NCBI RefSeq assembly: GCF_000943545.1
Contig: NZ_JTHP01000019.1
Location: 1 to 64,000 of the forward strand
DNA: 64,000 nt
Source: Paenibacillus terrae
Lineage (GTDB): Bacteria; Bacillota; Bacilli; Paenibacillales; Paenibacillaceae
Direction of reading: 5' to 3'
The notes beneath the pieces were generated by a model. It searched no databases, was not told the DNA's origin, and worked only from the letters and a program-made list of their open reading frames with translations. Position 1 is the stretch's first letter, and every line of letters starts with the position of its first letter. The position numbers and the translations under genes are program-made. Positions 2,956 to 20,701 of this stretch are shown here, one piece after another.

Positions 2956-4806
2956 TTAGTGGTCTGCTTCTATAGAATCCATGAAAGCAGGCTGCTTATG
3001 CTGGACATGGTGGATAAAAATAGCCGTTAGCTCCGGATCGAATTGGCTGCCAGAGCAGGCACGCAGTTCCTCAATCGCTTCATCAAACGTTTTGGTGGGT
3101 TGGTAGGGACGCTCAGTGGTCATGGCATCGAAGGAGTCAATAATCGTCAGCATCCGGCACAGCCGTGGAATTTGCTCGCCCTTGAAGCCGAATGGATAGC
3201 CTCCCCCGTCATAGCGTTCATGATGTAGCTCCACAAAAGGAACCAGATCTACGAATCGTTCGTTGGCCTCGATAATTCGTTTGCCCCACATGACATGTGC
3301 TTGCACCATCGTCCATTCCTCACAGGACAGCTTTTCTTTTTTATTGAGAATATTCCACGGAATTTCCAGCTTGCCAATGTCATGAATGAGAGCACCCAAT
3401 ATAAACCGCCGTTTATCCTCCGGGCCGAGCTGAAGCACCTCACTCATATCTGCTGCATATCTGAATACCCGTTTGGAATGCTTGAAGGTATTAATATCCT
3501 TGTACAAAAACAGATTAAGCTGCTGCTCAATATCACGAATATCCTGTCCCAGATCGACTTCACGTTCCAATTCATTTAAACTGCCATGTGTGTGAACGAT
3601 ATTTTTTCCCTGCTTCTTGGCGTAGTACAGTGCTTTATCTGCCAGATCGACCAGCTGTGATTTGTCGTAGATGTCGATGCGGCTTTGTGCAATGCCTGCG
3701 GAGAAGGACAAGCAGCCGTGTGGGAAAATTTCCACGCCCTCGTAGCGGGAATCATTCAGCCTTTTTCGGATGGCATTGACCGTTTCGTAGGCTTGCTCGG
3801 CGGTATGGTCAGGCATAAGCAGCGTAAATTCTTCTCCACCATAGCGGGAGACGATAATATTGGTGCCGGAAGTTTCCTTTTTGAGAATCTCTCCGAGAAA
3901 TCCCAACAGTTGATCGCCTTTCAGGTGGCCGAAGTGATCGTTGTATTTTTTGAAATCATCAATATCAATCAGGGCAAGGCTGAGGGGGGTATTCTGGGTT
4001 TTGGCTATATTCAGCTCGGTTTCGAGTGCATTTTCAAAATAACTGTGATTGTACAGCCCTGTTCTGCGGTCCATGTTGGCTTTTTCTTCAATTTCCCGAT
4101 ACATCGTAAACAACTGCTTGAACGCGTGGGATAGAAGCATACTTAGCGCAAGGAACAACAGAAGCCCCAAAATACCGTTATGATAAATCAGTGTGGTCAG
4201 TACGAGAGACAGGATGAGTGTGCATAAGTAAACAAGCAGGGATTCAGCGAGAAAAGCCTTTTTTAGCTCATTGAGAGAGCCTTTGTAAGCAATATAAAAG
4301 TAGAGACCCAGTGTAACGGTATTCACCGCAAAGTAGCAGAACAGTGCCAGCAGGTAGGCAGTAAAATGCTCATCGTTCAAGCCTCCCTGTGTTCCGCCGC
4401 TAAGCTCAAAGACGGCAGACGACAGGAAAATGGAGAGCGCATAGATGGAAAAATTGGCGGCATGCTTCCACCAGGACAGTTCTCTATACCGGATTGCGGC
4501 AATGAGTACATTGAACAATAAAATGAGAATAGCGATTTCAGTGCCATGTACAAAAATACAAGCGAGATACACGGAGGAATCCATCGACTGCTTGTTACTG
4601 GCTGGTGGCAGCTGGAAGGTAAAATGCTCCAAAATCAGAACTGCTCCCAGCAGGGAGTAAATCGTGACCCACTCTGTAGGCGAATAGTGCATAAAGGACC
4701 AATGATTCGTATACAAGAGGATGCCTAAGCCTGCCATACATATGAGAAAAACGTATAATCCCGTCGCGCTAACCCGTTCTTGCAGCTTTTTTATTATACT
4801 CATCAT
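2956..4806 (-). CDS. Membrane GGDEF / HD-GYP cyclic-di-GMP turnover protein
   Basis: 616 residues. The N-terminal 230 or so hold about seven to eight hydrophobic helices. A GGDEF domain follows (about 240-405) with an intact RYGGEEF active site, then an HD-GYP domain (about 430-605) with HDIGK and HHERYDGGGYP, the metal-binding phosphodiesterase signature. Synthase and hydrolase motifs both look intact, so the protein may make or break c-di-GMP under control of the membrane sensor. No RxxD inhibitory site is seen at its usual place before GGEEF. The start follows AGGAGA. It is monocistronic, ending at a strong hairpin. Confidence 0.9.
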   Translation of the reverse strand: MMSIIKKLQERVSATGLYVFLICMAGLGILLYTNHWSFMHYSPTEWVTIYSLLGAVLILEHFTFQLPPASNKQSMDSSVYLACIFVHGTEIAILILLFNVLIAAIRYRELSWWKHAANFSIYALSIFLSSAVFELSGGTQGGLNDEHFTAYLLALFCYFAVNTVTLGLYFYIAYKGSLNELKKAFLAESLLVYLCTLILSLVLTTLIYHNGILGLLLFLALSMLLSHAFKQLFTMYREIEEKANMDRRTGLYNHSYFENALETELNIAKTQNTPLSLALIDIDDFKKYNDHFGHLKGDQLLGFLGEILKKETSGTNIIVSRYGGEEFTLLMPDHTAEQAYETVNAIRKRLNDSRYEGVEIFPHGCLSFSAGIAQSRIDIYDKSQLVDLADKALYYAKKQGKNIVHTHGSLNELEREVDLGQDIRDIEQQLNLFLYKDINTFKHSKRVFRYAADMSEVLQLGPEDKRRFILGALIHDIGKLEIPWNILNKKEKLSCEEWTMVQAHVMWGKRIIEANERFVDLVPFVELHHERYDGGGYPFGFKGEQIPRLCRMLTIIDSFDAMTTERPYQPTKTFDEAIEELRACSGSQFDPELTAIFIHHVQHKQPAFMDSIEADH

Positions 4807-4896
4807 TTCATTCTCCTGCCTTGTCTTATCTTGATGTCAAAGCTACCAGGGGGTAAATGGGATAATTTACAATTTTGTAATCGAAAATTTCACATG

Positions 4897-4926
4897 AAAA
4901 AACAGGCCGGAATCCAGCCTGTTTTG
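4897..4926 (-). terminator. Rho-independent terminator of the DUF5317/small-protein unit
   Basis: On the minus strand ACAGGC pairs with GCCTGT across a nine-base loop and is followed by six T. It lies about 35 bases after the stop of the 31-residue gene. Confidence 0.8.
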
Positions 4927-4959
4927 TTGAGCCTGTGCTTCCCTTTTCCTTATCGGTAA

Positions 4960-5055
4960 TTAGCCTCCGATTTTGTAACCGGAAGTCAAAGCGATTACGA
5001 CAGAAGCGACGATAATAGCGTTGATAATCACACGGGAATATTTCAAATTTTTCAT
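4960..5055 (-). CDS. 31-residue single-helix membrane protein
   Basis: A short open frame with a strong ribosome site (AAGGAAGGGAG) about six bases before ATG. The product starts MKNLKYSRV, has one hydrophobic segment (roughly residues 8-24) and ends SGYKIGG. It begins 34 bases after the DUF5317 gene and is followed by a clear terminator, so the two form a transcription unit. The basic N-terminus followed by a hydrophobic helix suggests a small membrane subunit or an uncleaved signal-like peptide. Function unknown. Confidence 0.7.
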   Translation of the reverse strand: MKNLKYSRVIINAIIVASVVIALTSGYKIGG

Positions 5056-5089
5056 AGGGTTCACTCCCTTCCTTGGAATAAGGCGCACA

Positions 5090-5683
5090 CTAGGCGTGGC
5101 GGGGATGGGTTTCTTGCTGAGTGGTCTTCTTTTTGTTCACGACCATGACGCTTTGAATAAACAGGAACATCCCAAAGTTCATGATGACGTCTCCAATACT
5201 GATCACCTGCGTACGGGGATAGGGCTTGGAGAGTGGAATAATATCACCCAAAAAAGATAAACGCGTACCCACATCCATCATGTAATGCTTCGAGATAACG
5301 CTTCCAGATTTAAGCATTTCTGTATAATAAGGGCCTAGCACCTCAGAAGCGCTCAACGAGACAGGCATCCTGCCGCCATTTACCGCCATGACGACAAAAT
5401 TCAATAGGACTCCGATTAAAATAAGCTTGAATCCCTTGTGGTGCCTGTTCAGCCAGAGAAAAATCAATCCAACCGCATAGATGCCCATAAACAGATACCC
5501 GTTGATGGACGCAAGCCAGGCCCATTTTTCCTGAGCATAAAAAATAATGAACTGCACCAGCAGCAGCACAGGGAACATCCAGCCAGCTATGAGGCGAATT
5601 TGGCTAAAGCGGATTAACCCCTGCCGCCAGCCCCCTCTGAACAGACCTACAATGAGACCAAGCAGCACTCCATCATAGACCAT
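5090..5683 (-). CDS. DUF5317 family membrane protein
   Basis: 197 residues with four to five hydrophobic helices. The family pattern is visible: NGGRMPVS near the middle, then FLGDIIPLSKPYPR and SIGDVIMNFG toward the C-terminus. Proteins of this type are common in Firmicutes and have no assigned function. First gene of a unit with the 31-residue protein. Divergent from the Bcr/CflA transporter across about 190 bases that must hold both promoters. Confidence 0.8.
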   Translation of the reverse strand: MVYDGVLLGLIVGLFRGGWRQGLIRFSQIRLIAGWMFPVLLLVQFIIFYAQEKWAWLASINGYLFMGIYAVGLIFLWLNRHHKGFKLILIGVLLNFVVMAVNGGRMPVSLSASEVLGPYYTEMLKSGSVISKHYMMDVGTRLSFLGDIIPLSKPYPRTQVISIGDVIMNFGMFLFIQSVMVVNKKKTTQQETHPRHA

Positions 5684-7953: not shown

Positions 7954-10410
7954 ATGGAAAACCGTGTGACCGACGGTGACAAGCAGACAACGCTTCATAT
8001 TACGGGGATGTCCTGTGCTGCCTGCGCCAGCCGTATTGAAAAAGGTTTAAATCGAATAGACGGCGTGGCGCAGGCTAATGTGAATCTGGCTTTGGAACAG
8101 GCGTCGATTTCGTATGATCCGAAGCAGGCCGATATTCCGGATTTTCGTGATAAAATTGCTTCGCTTGGCTTTGGAACCGTGAGTGAGGAAGCCAATCTGA
8201 ATGTGACGGGCATGACATGCGCAGCCTGCGCGACCCGGATTGAAAAGGGTCTGAACCGGATGCCGGGTGTGACGGGCGCTACGGTGAATTTGGCGATGGA
8301 AACAGCGCATGTGGAATATGCGGCGGGAAGTATTGCGGTCAGTGATCTGGTGAGCAAGATTGAGCAGCTTGGCTATGGAGCCATCCCGCAGAGTGCCGAG
8401 GATAACATCGCAGACGTGCGCAGCAAGGATTTGAATCGTAAAAAATGGAAGTGGATCGTATCTGCTGTACTGTCACTTCCGCTGTTATGGGCGATGGTCA
8501 CTCATTTTTCATTTACCTCATGGATGTATGTACCGAGCTTGTTTTTAAACCCTTGGTTCCAGTTCGCACTCGCTACGCCAATACAGTTTGTGATCGGTTG
8601 GCAGTTCTACGTAGGAGCATACAAGGCGTTGCGCAACGGCGGCTCCAATATGGATGTACTGGTTGCTCTGGGCACGTCTTCGGCTTATTTTTACAGCTTG
8701 TATCTCACCTTGCGTCCGTCGACCGTGATGGATGGCATGGGCGGTATGGCTGTTATAAAAATGCCTGAACTGTACTATGAGACAAGCGCGGTGCTGATTA
8801 CGCTCATTCTCGTCGGCAAATGGTTCGAGGCAGTAGCCAAGGGCCGTTCGTCCGAGGCGATCAAGAGTCTCATGAGTCTTCAGGCGACAACAGCGCGTGT
8901 GGTACGTGATGGGCAAGAGCATGATATACCGATTGAGCAGGTTCGTGTGAAAGATATCTTTATTGTACGTCCCGGCGAGAAAATTCCTGTCGATGGTGTG
9001 GTCGTGGACGGACGCTCGGCGGTGGATGAATCCATGCTGAGTGGCGAAAGTCTTCCGCTGGAAAAAGAAGCGGGTTCTGTGGTCACAGGAGCTACGCTCA
9101 ATAAAAACGGTGTACTTCGTATCCAGGCCGAGCGTGTCGGTGGCGATACGGCATTGGCCCGTATTATTAAGGTCGTGGAGGATGCGCAGAACTCCAAGGC
9201 TCCTATTCAGCGGATCGCGGATCAAATCTCGGGTATTTTTGTACCCATTGTTGTTGCTGTTGCCGTGGTGACCTTTTTCGTCTGGTTTTTCCTTGTGACA
9301 CCGGCTGATTTTGCAGGTTCACTGGAGAAGATGATTGCAGTTCTCGTCATTGCTTGTCCTTGTGCGCTCGGATTGGCTACGCCAACGTCTATTATGGCGG
9401 GTTCGGGACGTGCCGCAGAGTATGGCATTCTGTTCAAGGGCGGCGAGCATCTGGAAATGACCCGCTCCATCAACGCGGTGGTACTGGATAAGACGGGTAC
9501 GGTTACGAACGGCAAGCCGGTGCTGACGGATGTTATGGTCGGAGAAGGAAGCTTGAGTGAAACGGATTTGCTGCGGTTGTTGGCTGCGGCGGAAAAAAGC
9601 TCGGAGCATCCGCTGGCGGAAGCCATTGTAAGGGGGATTGCGGATCGCGGCATTGAGCTAGTAGAGCCAACGGATTTTGAAAATATTCCGGGCTATGGCG
9701 TGAAGGCTCATGTGGAAGGAAAGCAGGTACTTGCAGGTACACGTCGATTGATGAGCAGGGAAGGCATCGCGATAGCTGACTCTGCCGAGCAGCATATGCA
9801 TGAGCTGGAGAATGCGGGCAAAACAGCAATGCTGATTGCGGTGGACGGTTCCTATGCTGGACTGGTAGCCGTGGCGGATACGATCAAGGAAACGTCACGG
9901 GAGGCGGTTGCCCGTCTGCGGGCGATGAACATTGAGGTTATCATGATTACGGGTGACAATGAACGGACCGCGCGGGCTGTTGCTGCCGAGGCTGGAATTG
10001 ATCGGGTGCTGGCTGAGGTGCTGCCAGAGGGCAAGGCGGAAGAAGTGAAACGGCTTCAGGAGCAGGGCCTGATCGTAGCTATGGTCGGAGATGGCATTAA
10101 TGACGCGCCCGCGCTGGCTACCGCTGATATCGGGATGGCCATGGGCACGGGTACGGATGTGGCGATGGAAGCTGCGGATATCACGCTTATGCGCGGCAAC
10201 CTGAACAGCATTCCCGATGCGATCGAAATGAGCCGCCGTACGATGACGAATATACGGCAAAATCTGTTTTGGGCGTTAGGTTATAACGTGATTGGCATCC
10301 CGATTGCAGCTTTGGGTTTTCTGGCCCCGTGGCTGGCGGGAGCGGCCATGGCATTTAGCTCCGTCTCGGTTGTGCTGAATGCGCTGCGTCTCCAACGGGT
10401 GAAGCTATAA
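7954..10410 (+). CDS. copA: CopA Cu(I)-exporting P1B-type ATPase
   Basis: 818 residues. Two N-terminal metal-binding domains carry CAAC at 21-24 and 89-92. Membrane helices follow, with the Cu-transport CPC motif ([11 protein letters not shown], about 468), the phosphorylation site DKTGT (Asp about 512), the SEHPLAEAI histidine-proline locus and the hinge [10 protein letters not shown] (about 712). All catalytic elements are intact. An upstream in-frame GTG at 7927 lies inside the operator; the ATG at 7954 with AGGAGGAGAG is the real start. Exports cytoplasmic Cu(I), fed by CopZ. Confidence 0.96.
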
Positions 10411-10496: not shown

Positions 10497-11756
10497 TTAG
10501 TCTGCTTGCTGTTTTTTTCGGGGAAAAAATAACTCCACCTGAGTTCCTTTATTTGTTTCTGAATGGATTCGGATGCTTCCGCCATGTACCTCTACAATCC
10601 ACTGAGCGATGGATAGTCCAAGTCCTGTTCCCCCCTCAGTACGGGATCTGACCTTGTCACCGCGATAAAATCGGTCAAAGACATAAGGCAATTCATCTTC
10701 TGCGATTCCGGAGCCGTTATCTGATACGCTGATATACACAGAATTTCCTTGATAACGTCCAATTACTTTTATCTGCCCGGTGGATGGGGTATATTTCAAA
10801 GCATTATCCAGCAGGATGGTGAAAAGCTGGTGTATTCTCCCGTCATCTCCCCATAGGAGCAGAGGCTCCTGTAATTCCGTAAGGATATTGACCCCTTTGG
10901 TATCTGCCAATAGTTTGAATTGCTCTGCTAACTCCCGTAATAATGAATCCAGTGTGATGAACGAGGGTTCAATCTGTAGCTGATTGGAATCGGATCGGGC
11001 CAGTGTCAGCAGATCCTCCAGCAGCCTGCCCATCCACTTGCTTTCTTTTAAAATTACAGCGATATGAGGGCTTTCCTGTTCTATAGAGTGTGTGGGATGC
11101 CTCAGGAGCATCTCTGTTTGGGCATGGATGATTGCCGTCGGTGTTCGCATCTCATGTGAGGCATCTGCAACAAAGCGTTGCTGCTTTTCCCAGGAGTTTC
11201 GTATAGGCACAAGCGCATGTCCCGCCAGAAATATACCCGCAAAAACAAAAATAATCCCTCCGATGACAATTCCCGCAGTAATATCCCACATCAAGGAATG
11301 GAGCGTCCGCTGCACATCCTGCAAGCTCTTGACGAGGCAAACTATGATCTGCGTGTTGGAATGCTTGGGCATATACACAAATTGAAGGGCCCGATAACTG
11401 CGATCACCGATGCTCACCGTCCGAATGGTCTGTGTGTTTGATTGATCTTTGAACAGACTAGCCATCTCCAGGGGAAATGACTGCTGGGGCGTTTGCCCAA
11501 GGAACTCGTTTTGATCAGACCAGAACAGGTATGTTATCTTCTCATCATGTTCGGGGTCCAAATCATTGGATTGGAGTAGTTCCGATGGAATGCGAGAGGC
11601 TTGAGCACGCTTTTGGGCCTGTACCATGATTTCATCCGTATCGTGATATAGCTGGTATTGCATATGAACGTACAGCCAGATGCCCAATATGGAAAAAACG
11701 AGAAGAAAAACAATAGTATTCAGGATGACCAGCCGTCTGCGAATGTTAGTGAACAT
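10497..11756 (-). CDS. Sensor histidine kinase of the flavin-module two-component system
   Basis: 419 residues from the chosen ATG. Two membrane helices (about 10-30 and 160-185) flank an extracellular domain of about 130 residues. Phosphoacceptor helix ASHEMRTPTAIIHAQ, N box DNALKYTP and G boxes SDNGSGIAEDE and GTGLGLSIAQWIV are present. It overlaps the end of the response regulator gene by 11 bases; the ATG at 11756 follows CGGGTG, and an in-frame GTG nine bases earlier is an alternative. The unit is divergent from the FMN-binding/ApbE/RnfD-like genes, which it may control (inference). Confidence 0.88.
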   Translation of the reverse strand: MFTNIRRRLVILNTIVFLLVFSILGIWLYVHMQYQLYHDTDEIMVQAQKRAQASRIPSELLQSNDLDPEHDEKITYLFWSDQNEFLGQTPQQSFPLEMASLFKDQSNTQTIRTVSIGDRSYRALQFVYMPKHSNTQIIVCLVKSLQDVQRTLHSLMWDITAGIVIGGIIFVFAGIFLAGHALVPIRNSWEKQQRFVADASHEMRTPTAIIHAQTEMLLRHPTHSIEQESPHIAVILKESKWMGRLLEDLLTLARSDSNQLQIEPSFITLDSLLRELAEQFKLLADTKGVNILTELQEPLLLWGDDGRIHQLFTILLDNALKYTPSTGQIKVIGRYQGNSVYISVSDNGSGIAEDELPYVFDRFYRGDKVRSRTEGGTGLGLSIAQWIVEVHGGSIRIHSETNKGTQVELFFPRKKQQAD

Positions 11757-12432
11757 GAGGGTCACCCGTTAACATATAACCGATTCCACGTACGGTTCGG
11801 AGAAGATTGTCTGCGTTACGGGCTGCGAGCTTTTTACGCAAAAGGTGCATATATACGTCGACTGCGGTCGTGGCCGCCCCCGAATCAAACCCCCAAACCC
11901 GGTCGAATATCTGCTCACGGGTTAATATTTGCTCTTTATTACATAGAAAATACTCCAGTAATTTATATTCTGTCGCCGTTAAGTTCAAGCCCTGTTCTCC
12001 GCTAAATGCGTCTCTCGCTGCAGGGACTAATCGGATAGGTCCATAGATCAATTCGCCTTCCTGTCCTATGGTGCCCTTTCTCCTCAAAACAGCTCTTGTT
12101 CGTGCCAATAATTCCGATACGGCGAACGGTTTCGTGATGTAGTCATCTGCTCCGATATCCAGTCCAGCGACACGATCCTCTACTGCATCTTTAGCTGTCA
12201 AAAGAATGATTGGGACGAGCATAGCGTGTGCCCTTAGCTTTTTGACGATTTCAACACCGCTCATTCCAGGCAACATGATATCGAGAATAATCAAATCATA
12301 AATATTCTGTTGGGCCAAATAATACCCTTCGTCGCCAGTTTCTGCGCCATCTGTCAGGAAAGATTCACTTTCAAAGAGGTCACGGACAATCTTGAGAAGA
12401 GAAGGATCATCTTCTACGACAAGCACTCGCAC
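11746..12432 (-). CDS. OmpR/PhoB-type response regulator
   Basis: 228 residues from the GTG at 12432, spaced eight bases after AAAGGTGG; a GTG at 12444 touches that ribosome site and is less likely. The receiver domain has the acidic pocket VVEDD, phosphoacceptor Asp in LIILDIMLPG and Lys in DYITKPF. The winged-helix domain is C-terminal (about 130-225, TATEYKLLEYF). Shares an intergenic region of about 125 bases with the divergent FMN-binding gene. Confidence 0.9.
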   Translation of the reverse strand: MRVLVVEDDPSLLKIVRDLFESESFLTDGAETGDEGYYLAQQNIYDLIILDIMLPGMSGVEIVKKLRAHAMLVPIILLTAKDAVEDRVAGLDIGADDYITKPFAVSELLARTRAVLRRKGTIGQEGELIYGPIRLVPAARDAFSGEQGLNLTATEYKLLEYFLCNKEQILTREQIFDRVWGFDSGAATTAVDVYMHLLRKKLAARNADNLLRTVRGIGYMLTGDPHVH

Positions 12433-12558
12433 ACGCTGTTCCACCTTTCAGCGATCGAACTCATTTTGTTTGTTTTTTAAGAAAATTTAAATATTCCACT
12501 ACTATACTAGCATTATCAGCAGAGGCGTATAAGGATAATCATATATGGAGGGATTTTC

Positions 12559-13041
12559 ATGGCACAGATGAATAAAAAATGGGTCGTTTTATGCTCAACA
12601 GCGATTACAGCAGTGTACGCAGCCGGATGTTTTACGACGGAAACCGAGGCAGCCATGCCGTCATTGCCGCATCACACGCAAGCCAGTATTCAAACAAATG
12701 ATATATCAAAAAACAATAATCCTTCAAATGTAAAGTCAACCTATACGAATAAACATAATATTCCACCCAAAAGTTTATATAAAGATGGTACCTATACGGG
12801 GATGGGCAATAATCGGCGTGGTTCCATTGAAGTCAGGGTAACGATCAAGAATGATAAAATAACGGACGTTGAAGTTAGCCATTTTGCCATGCATTATTCG
12901 GAAAGTGATATAGCAGGGCTCCCTTCGGAGGTTGTGCAAAACCAGAGTGCACAAGTGATGAATGTATCCGGTGCAACGTATAGCACCCGGGCATTTCAGG
13001 ACGCTGTACAAAATGCGCTCTCCAGCGCACAAAACGTGTAG
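12559..13041 (+). CDS. Extracytoplasmic FMN-binding domain protein (flavinylation substrate)
   Basis: 160 residues. The N-terminal hydrophobic segment (7-25) ends AAGC, a lipobox-like sequence, though ordinary signal cleavage or a simple anchor is possible. After a low-complexity linker, the FMN-binding domain (PF04205) runs from about 78 to 158. The motif SGATYST places Thr140 as the residue to which ApbE would attach FMN. The next gene encodes ApbE two bases after this stop, which strongly supports covalent flavinylation. The protein would shuttle electrons on the outer face of the membrane. GGAGGG precedes the ATG. Confidence 0.88.
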   Translation: MAQMNKKWVVLCSTAITAVYAAGCFTTETEAAMPSLPHHTQASIQTNDISKNNNPSNVKSTYTNKHNIPPKSLYKDGTYTGMGNNRRGSIEVRVTIKNDKITDVEVSHFAMHYSESDIAGLPSEVVQNQSAQVMNVSGATYSTRAFQDAVQNALSSAQNV

Positions 13042-13043
13042 CT

Positions 13044-13931
13044 ATGAAAAGAACTAAATTATATATGGATACTGCCGTAAGCATACAGATTGTTACAGGA
13101 AAATCCACATCCGAAGAAGCGGTAACACAGAAAATGAATCAGGCATTTGAGGCTTTTCAAAAAGTAGAGCAAGCTTGCAGTCGTTTTAGCCCTGACAGTG
13201 AATTGATGAGCGCCTGCCAACAGGTAGGAGTACCTGTAACCGTGAGCCCGTTTTTGTTTGAACCCCTCAAATTTGCTTTGGAAATAGCCAAATGGACGGA
13301 TGGGGTATTTGATCCTACGGTAGGAAAAATAATGGAATATCATGGATTTAATCGACATTATTTAACCGGGCAATCCATTGAAAGTCCTTCTGCCGCTACG
13401 GTAACTTATCGGGATATCGTTTTAAATGAACAAGATCGTACATTGTGTTTGCGGAAGCCATTGGTGATTGATTTAGGAGCTGTAGCCAAAGGATTTGCCA
13501 TTGACTTGGCAGCTCATGAGTTAAAAGAATTTGAAGGATTTGTCGTGAATGCGGGCGGCGATCTGTTTGCAGGAGGGGTGAACGATGGTGGAGAGGCATG
13601 GGAAATAGGTATTCAGCATCCTGAACGCAAAGAGGAAATGGTATCGACGGTTCTGCTTTCCAATGAGGCTATCTGTACTTCGGGAGGTTACGAGCGCAAG
13701 AGTGTGGCATCGGCTGATGTACATCATTTGATTGATCCTAAAACCAAGCGCTCGCCCAAGGAATGGGTTAGTTCCAGCGTGATTGCCCCCTTCGCTATGA
13801 TGGCGGATGCTTTTTCTACGGCATCATTTCTGTTGGGTGCAGCAGAGGGGCAACGGCTCATGGAACAAGCGGGTTTACAAGGCATCCTCATTACATCTGA
13901 TTTACAATTGGTTCGAGTAGGAGGGATATAA
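13044..13931 (+). CDS. apbE: ApbE FAD:protein FMN transferase
   Basis: 295 residues. ApbE marks include MDTAVSI at the start, DLGAVAKGFAID, NAGGDLFAGG and the late SSVIAPFAMMADAFSTA. It transfers FMN from FAD to Thr/Ser of target proteins outside the membrane. No clear signal peptide or lipobox is seen, unlike many ApbE proteins, so its location is uncertain. Two bases after the FMN-binding gene and directly abutting the next start, so translation of all three is probably coupled. Confidence 0.9.
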   Translation: MKRTKLYMDTAVSIQIVTGKSTSEEAVTQKMNQAFEAFQKVEQACSRFSPDSELMSACQQVGVPVTVSPFLFEPLKFALEIAKWTDGVFDPTVGKIMEYHGFNRHYLTGQSIESPSAATVTYRDIVLNEQDRTLCLRKPLVIDLGAVAKGFAIDLAAHELKEFEGFVVNAGGDLFAGGVNDGGEAWEIGIQHPERKEEMVSTVLLSNEAICTSGGYERKSVASADVHHLIDPKTKRSPKEWVSSSVIAPFAMMADAFSTASFLLGAAEGQRLMEQAGLQGILITSDLQLVRVGGI

Positions 13932-14759
13932 ATGACGATAAAACAATGGAGTAAATCACCAAAAGGCTATGTTGCAATGGTTATCACGGCTTATCTTCTT
14001 ATAGCCTCTATCGCAGAGCATGACATGGCAGGCATTATCAATGGAATCGTGGCCGTCGGTGCTGCTGTAGCTGTTGACATTATTTGTGGCTTGATGAGAC
14101 AAAGGAAGCGAATGCTGCCGGATGGTGCATTGATCACCGGGCTACTTATCGCCCTGGTGTTAAGCACTATGACCTCTTGGCCTGTTGTTGCGGCTACTTC
14201 AGCGATTGCCATAGTATCCAAGCACCTGTTGGTCTATAGGAAGAAGCCGATTTTTAATCCGGCGGCTTTTGGACTGCTGCTATCTATTCTCATATTTGGA
14301 TCAGGGCAGAGCTGGTGGGGGGCATTCGGGGATTTACCCACATGGATGATTGCCTTCCTGCTCATTGGTGGATATGTAATAACGGATCGGGTCAATAAAT
14401 ATCCGCAGGTGTTTTCATTTTTCGGGACATTTTTTGTATTATTGTTCCTTATAGGTCGCTTTCATCTGGGAGATGCTTCGGATGCACTTCGTCCTCCATT
14501 CATCAATGCTGCTCTTTTCTTTGGCTTTTTTATGCTCACTGATTTGCCCACGACTCCTGCCAAGGTGAAGGATCAAATCGTTTTTGGAATTCTTGTGGCG
14601 TTTGTAGGAGCGGCTGTGTATGACCTTTTTGGAGGATTAATGTACTTGTTTATAGGGCTGCTATTGGCAAACCTGTATCATGTACTCAAATCACGTTTGA
14701 GTGCAAGAGTGACCAACAGGCCTGTTTCGAATATGCAACCAGTCTCCAAGCGAGGTTAA
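13932..14759 (+). CDS. RnfD/NqrB-like membrane subunit
   Basis: 275 residues with about eight to nine hydrophobic helices. RnfD/NqrB-like features are DGALITGLLIALVLS, KKPIFNPAAFGL and LTDLPTTP. In Rnf and Nqr complexes this subunit carries flavin and takes part in electron transfer across or to the membrane. None of the other Rnf/Nqr subunits is beside it, so this is a reduced module that may pass electrons from a membrane donor to the flavinylated protein. The ATG immediately follows the apbE stop; a terminator follows. Confidence 0.82.
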   Translation: MTIKQWSKSPKGYVAMVITAYLLIASIAEHDMAGIINGIVAVGAAVAVDIICGLMRQRKRMLPDGALITGLLIALVLSTMTSWPVVAATSAIAIVSKHLLVYRKKPIFNPAAFGLLLSILIFGSGQSWWGAFGDLPTWMIAFLLIGGYVITDRVNKYPQVFSFFGTFFVLLFLIGRFHLGDASDALRPPFINAALFFGFFMLTDLPTTPAKVKDQIVFGILVAFVGAAVYDLFGGLMYLFIGLLLANLYHVLKSRLSARVTNRPVSNMQPVSKRG

Positions 14760-14772
14760 ACGGTTTAAAATA

Positions 14773-14815
14773 AGCAAGTACGTACGGGATTGACTTCCAG
14801 CGTGCTTGCTTTTTG
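14773..14815 (+). terminator. Terminator of the flavin-module operon
   Basis: AGCAAGTACG pairs with CGTGCTTGCT, followed by T-rich sequence, 14 bases after the RnfD-like stop. Confidence 0.85.
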
Positions 14816-14956
14816 CCGTGGAGTGAGGTTGCTTATCATTCCCGAAAGTTTCATAATACTTGTAGTAGTGCCATGCAAACATGCAGAAACCTCTTCGTAT
14901 ACGCACAGTTTGACACAGATAAAAAGCTTATATTATGGATTAGGAGTGAAGCAGTC

Positions 14957-15700
14957 ATGAATGATACGATTTCCTTGTTGATGAATCATCGGTCTGTACG
15001 AAGATTCAAGTCAGACGCCGTTACCGACGAGCAACTCGCAGCTATTGTGGCAGCAGGCCAGATGGCTTCCTCGTCCAGCAATGTACAGGCTTATACCGTC
15101 ATTGCCGTTACAGAGCCTTCTTTGAAAACAAAGCTGGCTGGGTTGGCTGGTGGTCAGGCTTACGTTGAGCAATGCCCGGCGTTCCTCGTGTGGTGTGCAG
15201 ATTTGTACCGCTTGAAGCAGGTCACAGTTCACCATCAGCCGGGCCAGCCCTCCTATGAAGGTTCCGTCGAAAATTATACGGTTGCGACCATTGATGCCGC
15301 GTTAGCCGCACAGAATGCAGCGGTAGCCGCCGAATCACTCGGTTTGGGCATTGTCTACATCGGAGGCATCCGTACGAAAATAGCCGAGGTATCCGAGCTG
15401 TTGAGGTTGCCTGAATTGGTATATCCGGTGTTCGGCATGTGTATTGGTGTACCGGATCAGGAAGGGAGCTTACGTCCACGTCTTCCGCTGTCCGGTGTTT
15501 TGCACATGAACGGCTACGACAAAAATCAGACGATGAAAGCTGTGGATCTGTATGATCACACATCGGCTGAATATTTGAAGGAACGCACAGGTGGCCAGCG
15601 GTCTACCCCATGGTCAGAGCAAATGGCAGCGAGACTGACCGAGCCTGCACGTTTGCAGATGAAGTCTTTTTTGGAGCAAAAGGGATTTTTGAAGCAATAA
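14957..15700 (+). CDS. NfsA/NfrA-type NADPH-dependent FMN oxidoreductase
   Basis: 247 residues from the ATG at 14957, supported by TAGGAGTG nine bases upstream; the open frame extends further upstream without a better start. Nitroreductase-fold signatures are HRSVRRFK (FMN phosphate contacts), ASSSSNVQAY and ESLGLGIVYIGGIR. The length and the C-terminal extension with YDHTSAEYLKERT fit the NfsA group, which reduces nitro compounds, quinones or FMN with NADPH. Stands alone between two terminators. Confidence 0.88.
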   Translation: MNDTISLLMNHRSVRRFKSDAVTDEQLAAIVAAGQMASSSSNVQAYTVIAVTEPSLKTKLAGLAGGQAYVEQCPAFLVWCADLYRLKQVTVHHQPGQPSYEGSVENYTVATIDAALAAQNAAVAAESLGLGIVYIGGIRTKIAEVSELLRLPELVYPVFGMCIGVPDQEGSLRPRLPLSGVLHMNGYDKNQTMKAVDLYDHTSAEYLKERTGGQRSTPWSEQMAARLTEPARLQMKSFLEQKGFLKQ

Positions 15701-20270: not shown

Positions 20271-20337
20271 TGCGCATGTATATACCAAAGTAAGGGATGG
20301 CCCGCCGTAATAAGAAAAAAGGGGCGCATCTTGCTTA

Positions 20338-20426
20338 AGCATTCCTACGCTGGCATTACCCAGATCAGGTTGTAAGGGTCAGTGTCTTGGGACACACTCT
20401 CAGCCGGCCGATTCCAGCACCCCTGG
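20338..20426 (-). promoter_or_regulatory. TPP (THI-box) riboswitch
   Basis: The minus strand carries the conserved THI elements in order: GGGGTGC, GGCTGAGAG, a variable P3 stem closed by a GTGTC / GACAC pairing, CCTT, ACCTGATCTGGGTAATGCC and AGCGTAGGAA. This is the complete aptamer core that binds thiamine pyrophosphate. With ligand bound, the downstream terminator should form and shut off the operon. Confidence 0.95.
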
Positions 20427-20701
20427 CATTGTATAGTCGAATGGGTTATTCAATTCGGGTTTACTACGACGATTATATGCCTAGAAGGCGGGTCTGTCCA
20501 GCATTGGGGAAGAAGTGACGGTTCATTTGCCGTACGCTAGGGTACACTTTTACTGTGAGCTTTGTTCTGAAAATGACCATGATTTAATCGCTTAAAGTTG
20601 TTTTTCAGAATAGCTACGCAGGTATGGTTTGATGAGCTGGTGTTGGAGCATGGCATGGGCCTTCAAAGGAATTCTAATTTGCGAAAAGGAGTTGTTGTAC
20701 C

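Follow-up and report, generated by a model that had tools for sequence, protein, structure and literature searches.

A 64,000-nucleotide stretch of the 6.5 Mb genome of Paenibacillus terrae (assembly GCF_000943545.1; positions 1 to 64,000 of the forward strand of contig NZ_JTHP01000019.1, C19 in our set; hereafter the window) carries a three-gene plus-strand operon. It encodes a flavin mononucleotide (FMN)-binding protein of the FMN_bind family, an ApbE flavin transferase and an NqrB/RnfD-like membrane protein, and it diverges from a minus-strand pair encoding an OmpR-type response regulator and a histidine kinase. The membrane protein lacks the flavinylated loop of RnfD, the Rnf/Nqr partners that were searched for are missing, and the operon is preceded by a conserved operator that goes with an orthologous two-component system (TCS) in related genomes. 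We propose that the module is a self-contained, sensor-controlled membrane flavin relay that would move electrons outward, a model on which our confidence is evenly balanced.

A reduced module of the Nqr/Rnf lineage

The gene and family assignments follow the open reading frames (ORFs) of the window and their Pfam matches, and all three matches of the operon proteins (FMN_bind, ApbE and NQR2_RnfD_RnfE) exceed the curated cut-offs. An initial annotation of this DNA had described a SGATYST-bearing FMN-binding protein, ApbE and an RnfD-like protein encoded without gaps and divergent from a kinase and regulator pair, and this is borne out, with intergenic distances of 2 nt (FMN_bind/ApbE) and 0 nt (ApbE/RnfD-like). 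Thr140 likewise keeps its place as the predicted FMN-bearing residue, SGATYST beginning at residue 137. The same annotation held that full Rnf/Nqr subunits are absent, which is correct for the families searched. Genome-wide searches found one locus each of ApbE (PF02424), PF03116 and FMN_bind (PF04205), and PF02508 (RnfA/E, NqrD/E) was found in none of 20 genomes carrying the module or its remains, the window's genome included, as against 4 of 14 control genomes; no separate search was made for RnfB, RnfC or NqrF. With a single PF03116 locus and no PF02508, membership of the module in an intact Rnf/Nqr complex is rejected.

The RnfD-like protein, which shares 97% identity with its counterpart in Paenibacillus terrae PIC167, is supported by modelling as having the RnfD fold. 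Searched against PDB sequences, a profile of 18 members retrieves chains of RnfD (E 5.7e-9 at best), and the AlphaFold model (predicted local distance difference test, pLDDT, 83.1) matches RnfD, at best with Z 25.0 across 254 residues, and NqrB with Z 20.7-22.9, the first unrelated fold following at Z 13.2. In the alignment, the long loop around Thr187 of E. coli RsxD, which we take to be the residue bearing the FMN of RsxD, has no counterpart in these proteins; a short WWGAFGD segment replaces it and is conserved in nearly all of the 18 aligned members. A flavinylation site on the RnfD-like protein itself was considered and rejected, [ST]GA[TS] occurring in 0/18 aligned members. In addition, the protein shares with RsxD the FNPA and TDP motifs, which presumably line a non-covalent flavin site. 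No nicotinamide adenine dinucleotide (NAD)-binding domain or fused PF00175 domain was detected, PF03116 being the only Pfam match, and the aligned relatives are of similar length.

Conservation was assessed in the best 80 of 144 confirmed relatives of the RnfD-like protein from a scan of genome contigs, loci that are kin and not independent of one another. The order FMN_bind-ApbE-RnfD-like is kept in 72 of them. Among the eight exceptions, L095 and L142 are truncated by the end of the contig, L074, L081 and L140 lack an ApbE between adjacent FMN_bind and rnfD-like genes, L088 and L097 (the latter with 560 bp available) have no module gene ahead of rnfD-like, and in L146 ApbE is split. The hosts include Paenibacillus, Cohnella, Neobacillus, Bacillus, Gottfriedia, Peribacillus, Priestia, Ectobacillus and others, together with a few metagenome bins, e.g. 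one named Desulfosporosinus. The initial annotation had called for a search for this gene order across Firmicutes and had thought the three-gene form with its own sensor less familiar; sequence comparison now indicates a conserved family spread across Bacillales, with few members outside, and not a rarity.

Among 197 Paenibacillaceae genomes, 33 match the RnfD-like protein and 18 hold the intact three-gene module. The other 15 comprise one with rnfD-like as two ORFs (G188), one remnant (G077), seven with a distant RnfD-like group and six weak matches (E 5e-5 to 3e-4); the surroundings of three weak matches were inspected, L065 and L066 were not recovered by phmmer, and weak match L064 presumably resembles NuoN. 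In 398 phylum-wide genomes, scores in the range of the family were reached only by the window's genome (462.8 bits) and one other (313.8 bits), the next match scoring 43.5 bits. The distant group carried by the seven genomes (L054-L061) consists of short RnfD-like proteins, about 27-31% identical, with NPNN in place of NPAA and no ApbE or FMN_bind nearby; one of them adjoins an FG-GAP/ASPIC-UnbV protein. Fragments of a second rnfD-like copy lie beside an intact one in L045 (6910-8816), and rnfD-like is split into two ORFs in L052 (6974-7803); we read these as signs of decay in some lineages.

The predicted partner of the membrane protein is conserved at its presumed attachment site, [ST]GA[TS] being kept in 76/76 FMN_bind relatives. 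Its N-terminus, aligned in 19 sequences, is a conserved membrane anchor without an evident cleaved signal or lipobox: C12, A15 and Y20 of the helix are invariant, and the linker that follows varies in length. Net positive charge is higher before than after the helix in 74/74 anchors (means +2.7 versus -1.1; the FMN_bind ORFs of L074 and L085 were unmatched by the anchor pattern and are outside the 74), and the FMN_bind domain is therefore predicted to lie outside. Lipoprotein status was rejected for the family: the window protein has AAGC, yet a Cys stands there in 0/18 aligned relatives.

The operator and its two-component system

In 44 of the 80 loci, orthologous kinases and regulators lie within 6 kb of the module. 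Four layouts occur: upstream of the module the pair is divergent in 17 loci and co-directional in 9, and downstream of it the pair is co-directional in 13 and convergent in 5. The kinase and regulator distances track those of the RnfD-like proteins (r 0.69 for the kinase and 0.61 for the regulator, against permutation maxima of 0.15 and 0.14), a correlation that partly reflects the common descent of the genomes. The extracytoplasmic sensor region of the kinase is poorly conserved. As regards a possible metal-binding sensor, the alignment of 46 sequences has no conserved Cys, and one His, beside the first membrane helix, is conserved in more than 60%.

The operator is TTTTAAGAAAATTTAAAT upstream of FMN_bind in the window and TTCTAAGAAAATTCTAAG in several Neobacillus loci, in both cases a direct repeat with an 11-bp period, 10 nt before the -10 element. 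Together with the -10 (above 10 bits, by our own reading of the score list) it precedes FMN_bind in 41 of the 44 loci with the orthologous TCS, being missing in L133, L138 and L144. Nine further loci, which belong to one clade (L071, L076, L089, L093, L106, L114, L121, L123, L127), have a different regulator and kinase pair upstream, with regulators 89% identical among themselves; none of the nine has the operator before FMN_bind, and TTTCA-N6-TTTCA, by eye also of 11-bp period, stands there instead. In these loci the different TCS and this repeat appear to have taken over from both the original TCS and the operator. Weaker TCS matches occur in 14 of the 80 loci, whose regulators together average 36% identity to the main set; L085 is counted here owing to its fragmented kinase and regulator, and its operator is strong.

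The site stands out from controls. Across the 1.13 Mb of the 80 loci there are 68 sites with a -10; reversing the sequence gives 2, and five Markov resamples have 0-3 apiece. The counts are biased upwards because the matrix was derived from the same upstream regions that it scored (66 genes, window included; 11 genes omitted, their start unrecognised). Allowing up to two mismatches, the window's genome holds 7 sites (3 for the reversed pattern), and the one at 12475 alone is exact and alone is followed by a -10. In the 197 genomes the spaced pattern yields 43 sites, and 8/8 exact ones precede FMN_bind; the 35 with one mismatch fall into 7 in module loci, 1 before a DUF2231 gene in L184, from a genome (G156) in which the RnfD-like protein has no match, and 27 elsewhere (19 for the reversed pattern), and in the 5 of these 27 that were inspected the adjoining genes are unrelated to the module. 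With one base added to the spacer, 26 sites were found, 0 of them at a module. A sigma-70 promoter scan gave no match at the FMN_bind promoter, which is expected if the operator occupies the place of the -35. The operator is thus well supported computationally as a regulatory site, and the response regulator is its probable ligand. Since orthologous kinase and regulator genes adjoin the module in four layouts and the operator goes with them, what appears best supported of all is that the TCS is dedicated to the module; this part of the initial annotation holds. In Paenibacillus brasilensis KACC 13842 (L068, about 4745-5580), an insertion parts the operator and -10 from FMN_bind; by eye it is an insertion element with GGGCC...GGCCC ends.

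Sites above 15 bits with a -10 also precede genes for the response regulator (7 loci), DUF2231 (3), VIT1 (1), ferredoxin (1) and, in L109, an ORF of another kind (1); in L137, a doubtful 14.9-bit site, which overlaps a ribosome-binding-like sequence, lies ahead of a cytochrome-b-like gene. Operator-like sites were seen at about 11037 in L109 and about 10992 in L118, the latter without a -10, each before an ORF that by eye resembles an oxidase dependent on flavin adenine dinucleotide (FAD); the L184 site before DUF2231 does have its -10. In the 6 kb around rnfD-like, the 80 loci contain VIT1-type genes in 8 (fragments and one weak match included), rubrerythrin-like genes in 7, DUF2231 in 7, ferredoxin in 2 and cytochrome-b-like genes in 3. 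In 19 Paenibacillaceae loci, which overlap with the 80, 7 have a cytochrome-b-like gene (a label given by Pfam matches below curated cut-offs) directly behind rnfD-like or a fragment of it, and 8 have VIT1. Both ferredoxin genes follow rnfD-like in Cohnella, and one has its own operator. The operator before DUF2231, VIT1 and ferredoxin genes hints at metal or redox physiology in some relatives. A genome-wide operator search found no wider regulon in the window's genome, where neither DUF2231 nor VIT1 is matched above cut-off, so the link to iron is weak for the window's own module. For DUF2231, considered as a possible haem protein, the model (pLDDT 76.7) gave 0 Foldseek matches under E 0.001.

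Features of the module in the window (positions of the 64,000-nt stretch)
Feature	Position	Strand	Evidence
Sensor histidine kinase (HisKA, HATPase_c)	10497..11765	-	Pfam; orthologues beside module; sensor alignment n=46
OmpR-type response regulator (Response_reg, Trans_reg_C)	11746..12444	-	Pfam; orthologues beside module
Predicted response-regulator operator TTTTAAGAAAATTTAAAT, direct repeat, 11-bp period, at -35 position	12475..12492	+	Conservation and controls
-10 element TATACT, 10 nt past operator	12503..12508	+	Sequence comparison; spacing control
FMN_bind protein: N-terminal membrane anchor, variable linker, FMN_bind domain at residues 88-155	12559..13041	+	Pfam E 3.3e-12; alignment n=19
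Codon of Thr140, predicted FMN attachment site in SGAT	12976..12978	+	Motif
ApbE (FAD:protein FMN transferase), without signal sequence	13044..13931	+	Pfam PF02424 E 3.4e-62
NqrB/RnfD-like membrane protein, 275 aa, without flavinylated loop or NAD-binding domain	13932..14759	+	NQR2_RnfD_RnfE (PF03116) E 4.5e-16
WWGAFGD segment, residues 128-134, at position of RnfD flavinylated loop	14313..14333	+	Alignments; outer location predicted
Terminator-like hairpin and U run, closing the operon	14772..14811	+	-20.6 kcal/mol, z -4.27

Two neighbours of the module in the window, an HMA-type metal P-type ATPase (7954-10410, plus strand) and an NfsA-type nitroreductase (14954-15700, plus strand), are both also present in L067 and L068. 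The nitroreductase was rejected as a member of the module: it sits beyond the terminator, and it adjoins the module in L067 and L068, being otherwise a weak match in L110. Elsewhere in the window, a thiamine pyrophosphate riboswitch (20325-20434, minus strand; 68.9 bits) lies ahead of genes for a solute-binding protein and an ATP-binding cassette transporter.

Flavinylation and the direction of electron flow

According to the proposed relay, an extracytoplasmic cue would activate the kinase, and the phosphorylated regulator would bind the direct-repeat operator at the -35 position and switch on fmn_bind-apbE-rnfD-like. ApbE would then transfer FMN from FAD to Thr140. The FMN_bind protein, fixed in the membrane through its N-terminal helix and with its domain outside, would dock externally on the RnfD-like subunit, close to the WWGAFGD segment. 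The donor would lie in the membrane or the cytosol (by default menaquinol; in relatives carrying such genes, perhaps ferredoxin or a haem b protein), and electrons would flow from it to a non-covalent flavin in the RnfD-like protein, on to FMN-Thr140, and from there to an external acceptor, possibly ferric iron. The outward direction is supported by the ferredoxin gene that follows rnfD-like in the two Cohnella loci.

Flavinylation fits this relay less easily. ApbE starts straight at its domain, and a signal sequence is present in 0/68 testable ApbE ORFs, the core start having been placed in 68 of 75 (7 had no recognised core start), 24 of the 68 having fewer than 13 in-frame residues ahead of it. 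For the remaining 44, the 13-residue stretch of highest hydrophobicity ahead of the core has a Kyte-Doolittle mean of at most 1.41, compared with 2.67 for E. coli ApbE and 1.6-2.4 for the FMN_bind anchors. Loading of the exported protein outside by a signal-less ApbE therefore meets a topology problem. Hence the minimal route from membrane electrons to an extracytoplasmic flavoprotein, as first suggested for this locus, stands in part: it is backed by the reduced make-up of the module, by the lack of those Rnf/Nqr partners that were tested and by the dedicated TCS, whereas external loading does not fit readily. The catalytic motifs that we take to mark ApbE are present in 59 to 73 of 74 ORFs, depending on the motif, and because the genome has no second ApbE, this one must have attached the FMN if Thr140 bears it. 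A tentative solution, which we rate somewhat below an even chance, is that the signal-less ApbE, encoded right behind the carrier gene, flavinylates the carrier in the cytosol, before or during membrane crossing. If true, export of FAD for the transferase would be unnecessary, and a chain with a covalent flavin nucleotide would traverse the export machinery.

Several further observations weigh against the proposed relay. The sole ApbE of the genome seems to be cytosolic while its only evident substrate seems to be exported, and only 13/76 FMN_bind relatives have the Asp that we take to belong to the ApbE target motif, the window protein having Met. No TCS lies within 6 kb of the module in 22 of the 80 loci; 12 of these keep the operator before FMN_bind, 9 show no site, and in the remaining one a site is present but FMN_bind is not recognised. 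Only a minority of relatives have iron-related neighbours. Moreover, the homologous NqrC-to-NqrB step of Nqr runs inward, from outside towards the membrane quinone (PMC11334425).

This last point favours an inward relay akin to the second half of Nqr, in which an extracytoplasmic reductant would feed FMN-Thr140, the flavin of the RnfD-like protein and finally menaquinone, and the absence of a cytosolic electron-input domain from the Pfam matches is in its favour as well. However, the Thr-linked FMN site of NqrB/RnfD is missing, and ferredoxin genes near the operon in two relatives fit outward flow better; we regard inward flow as unlikely. Flow could also be outward and depend on a separate cytosolic reductase in trans, a NAD(P)H-flavin or ferredoxin reductase that replaces the fused PF00175 domain. 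Published Nqr/Rnf-like membrane subunits bear such a domain (PMC8238504; PMC11334425), and ferredoxin stands beside rnfD-like in two loci, but no conserved reductase neighbour was seen among the gene clusters of the 80 loci and the window's nitroreductase lies beyond the terminator, which leaves this option rather improbable. A purely signalling role, in which the flavoprotein and membrane subunit would report redox state to the kinase without bulk electron transfer, would suit the close linkage of TCS and module, but it is highly improbable, as the operator before the module makes the module an output and the module is kept in loci without a nearby TCS.

If the outward relay is correct, the Nqr/Rnf lineage would include a transmembrane flavin relay of very small size, with one membrane subunit, one flavoprotein, one loading enzyme and one switch. 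With three genes, the question of how an extracytosolic FMN receives electrons when NAD domain and Fe-S partners are both lacking becomes testable, and a signal-less ApbE across dozens of species raises that of where flavinylation takes place. The operator, through which the module is tied in some relatives to genes of metal and redox physiology, offers a promoter handle for screening the inducing signal.

Comparison with known flavin-based systems

Meheust et al. (2021) defined NQR/RNF-like gene clusters by an NqrB/RnfD domain plus a PF00175 domain, six of which include VIT1 (PMC8238504), and Huang et al. (2024) described a membrane subunit without the Thr site, at which the outer flavin was suggested to sample a non-covalent flavin site (PMC11334425). 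The module resembles these systems in combining an FMN_bind protein, here predicted to be extracytosolic, with an NqrB/RnfD-type subunit that lacks the flavinylated Thr, in having ApbE in the cluster, and in the occurrence of VIT1 near some relatives. It differs in the absence of the fused PF00175 domain, their defining criterion, in its signal-less ApbE, and in its dedicated TCS and conserved operator. As for ApbE, a review states that most ApbEs seem to be secreted and gives one cytoplasmic case, that of Klebsiella pneumoniae, which has no signal peptide either; its substrate is a soluble cytoplasmic fumarate reductase (PMC12052999), whereas the substrate here is predicted to be exported.

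The module proteins are homologous to RnfD/NqrB and RnfG/NqrC of the Rnf and Nqr complexes; in contrast to these, the window's genome lacks PF02508 and the membrane subunit has no Thr-linked FMN loop of its own. In the PplA/FmnB system of Listeria, which performs flavin-based extracellular electron transfer, the membrane partner is a dehydrogenase where the module has an RnfD-like protein, and ApbE acts outside. Both systems pair a Gram-positive surface protein with ApbE, flavinylated in Listeria (PMC12052999; PMC9973259) and predicted to be so here. A literature search by title and abstract start, covering few subscription journals, found no description of the three-gene form, its TCS or its operator. 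On present comparison, the closest known counterparts appear to be the Nqr/Rnf-like systems, from which the absence of PF00175, the signal-less ApbE, and the dedicated TCS with its operator set this module apart.

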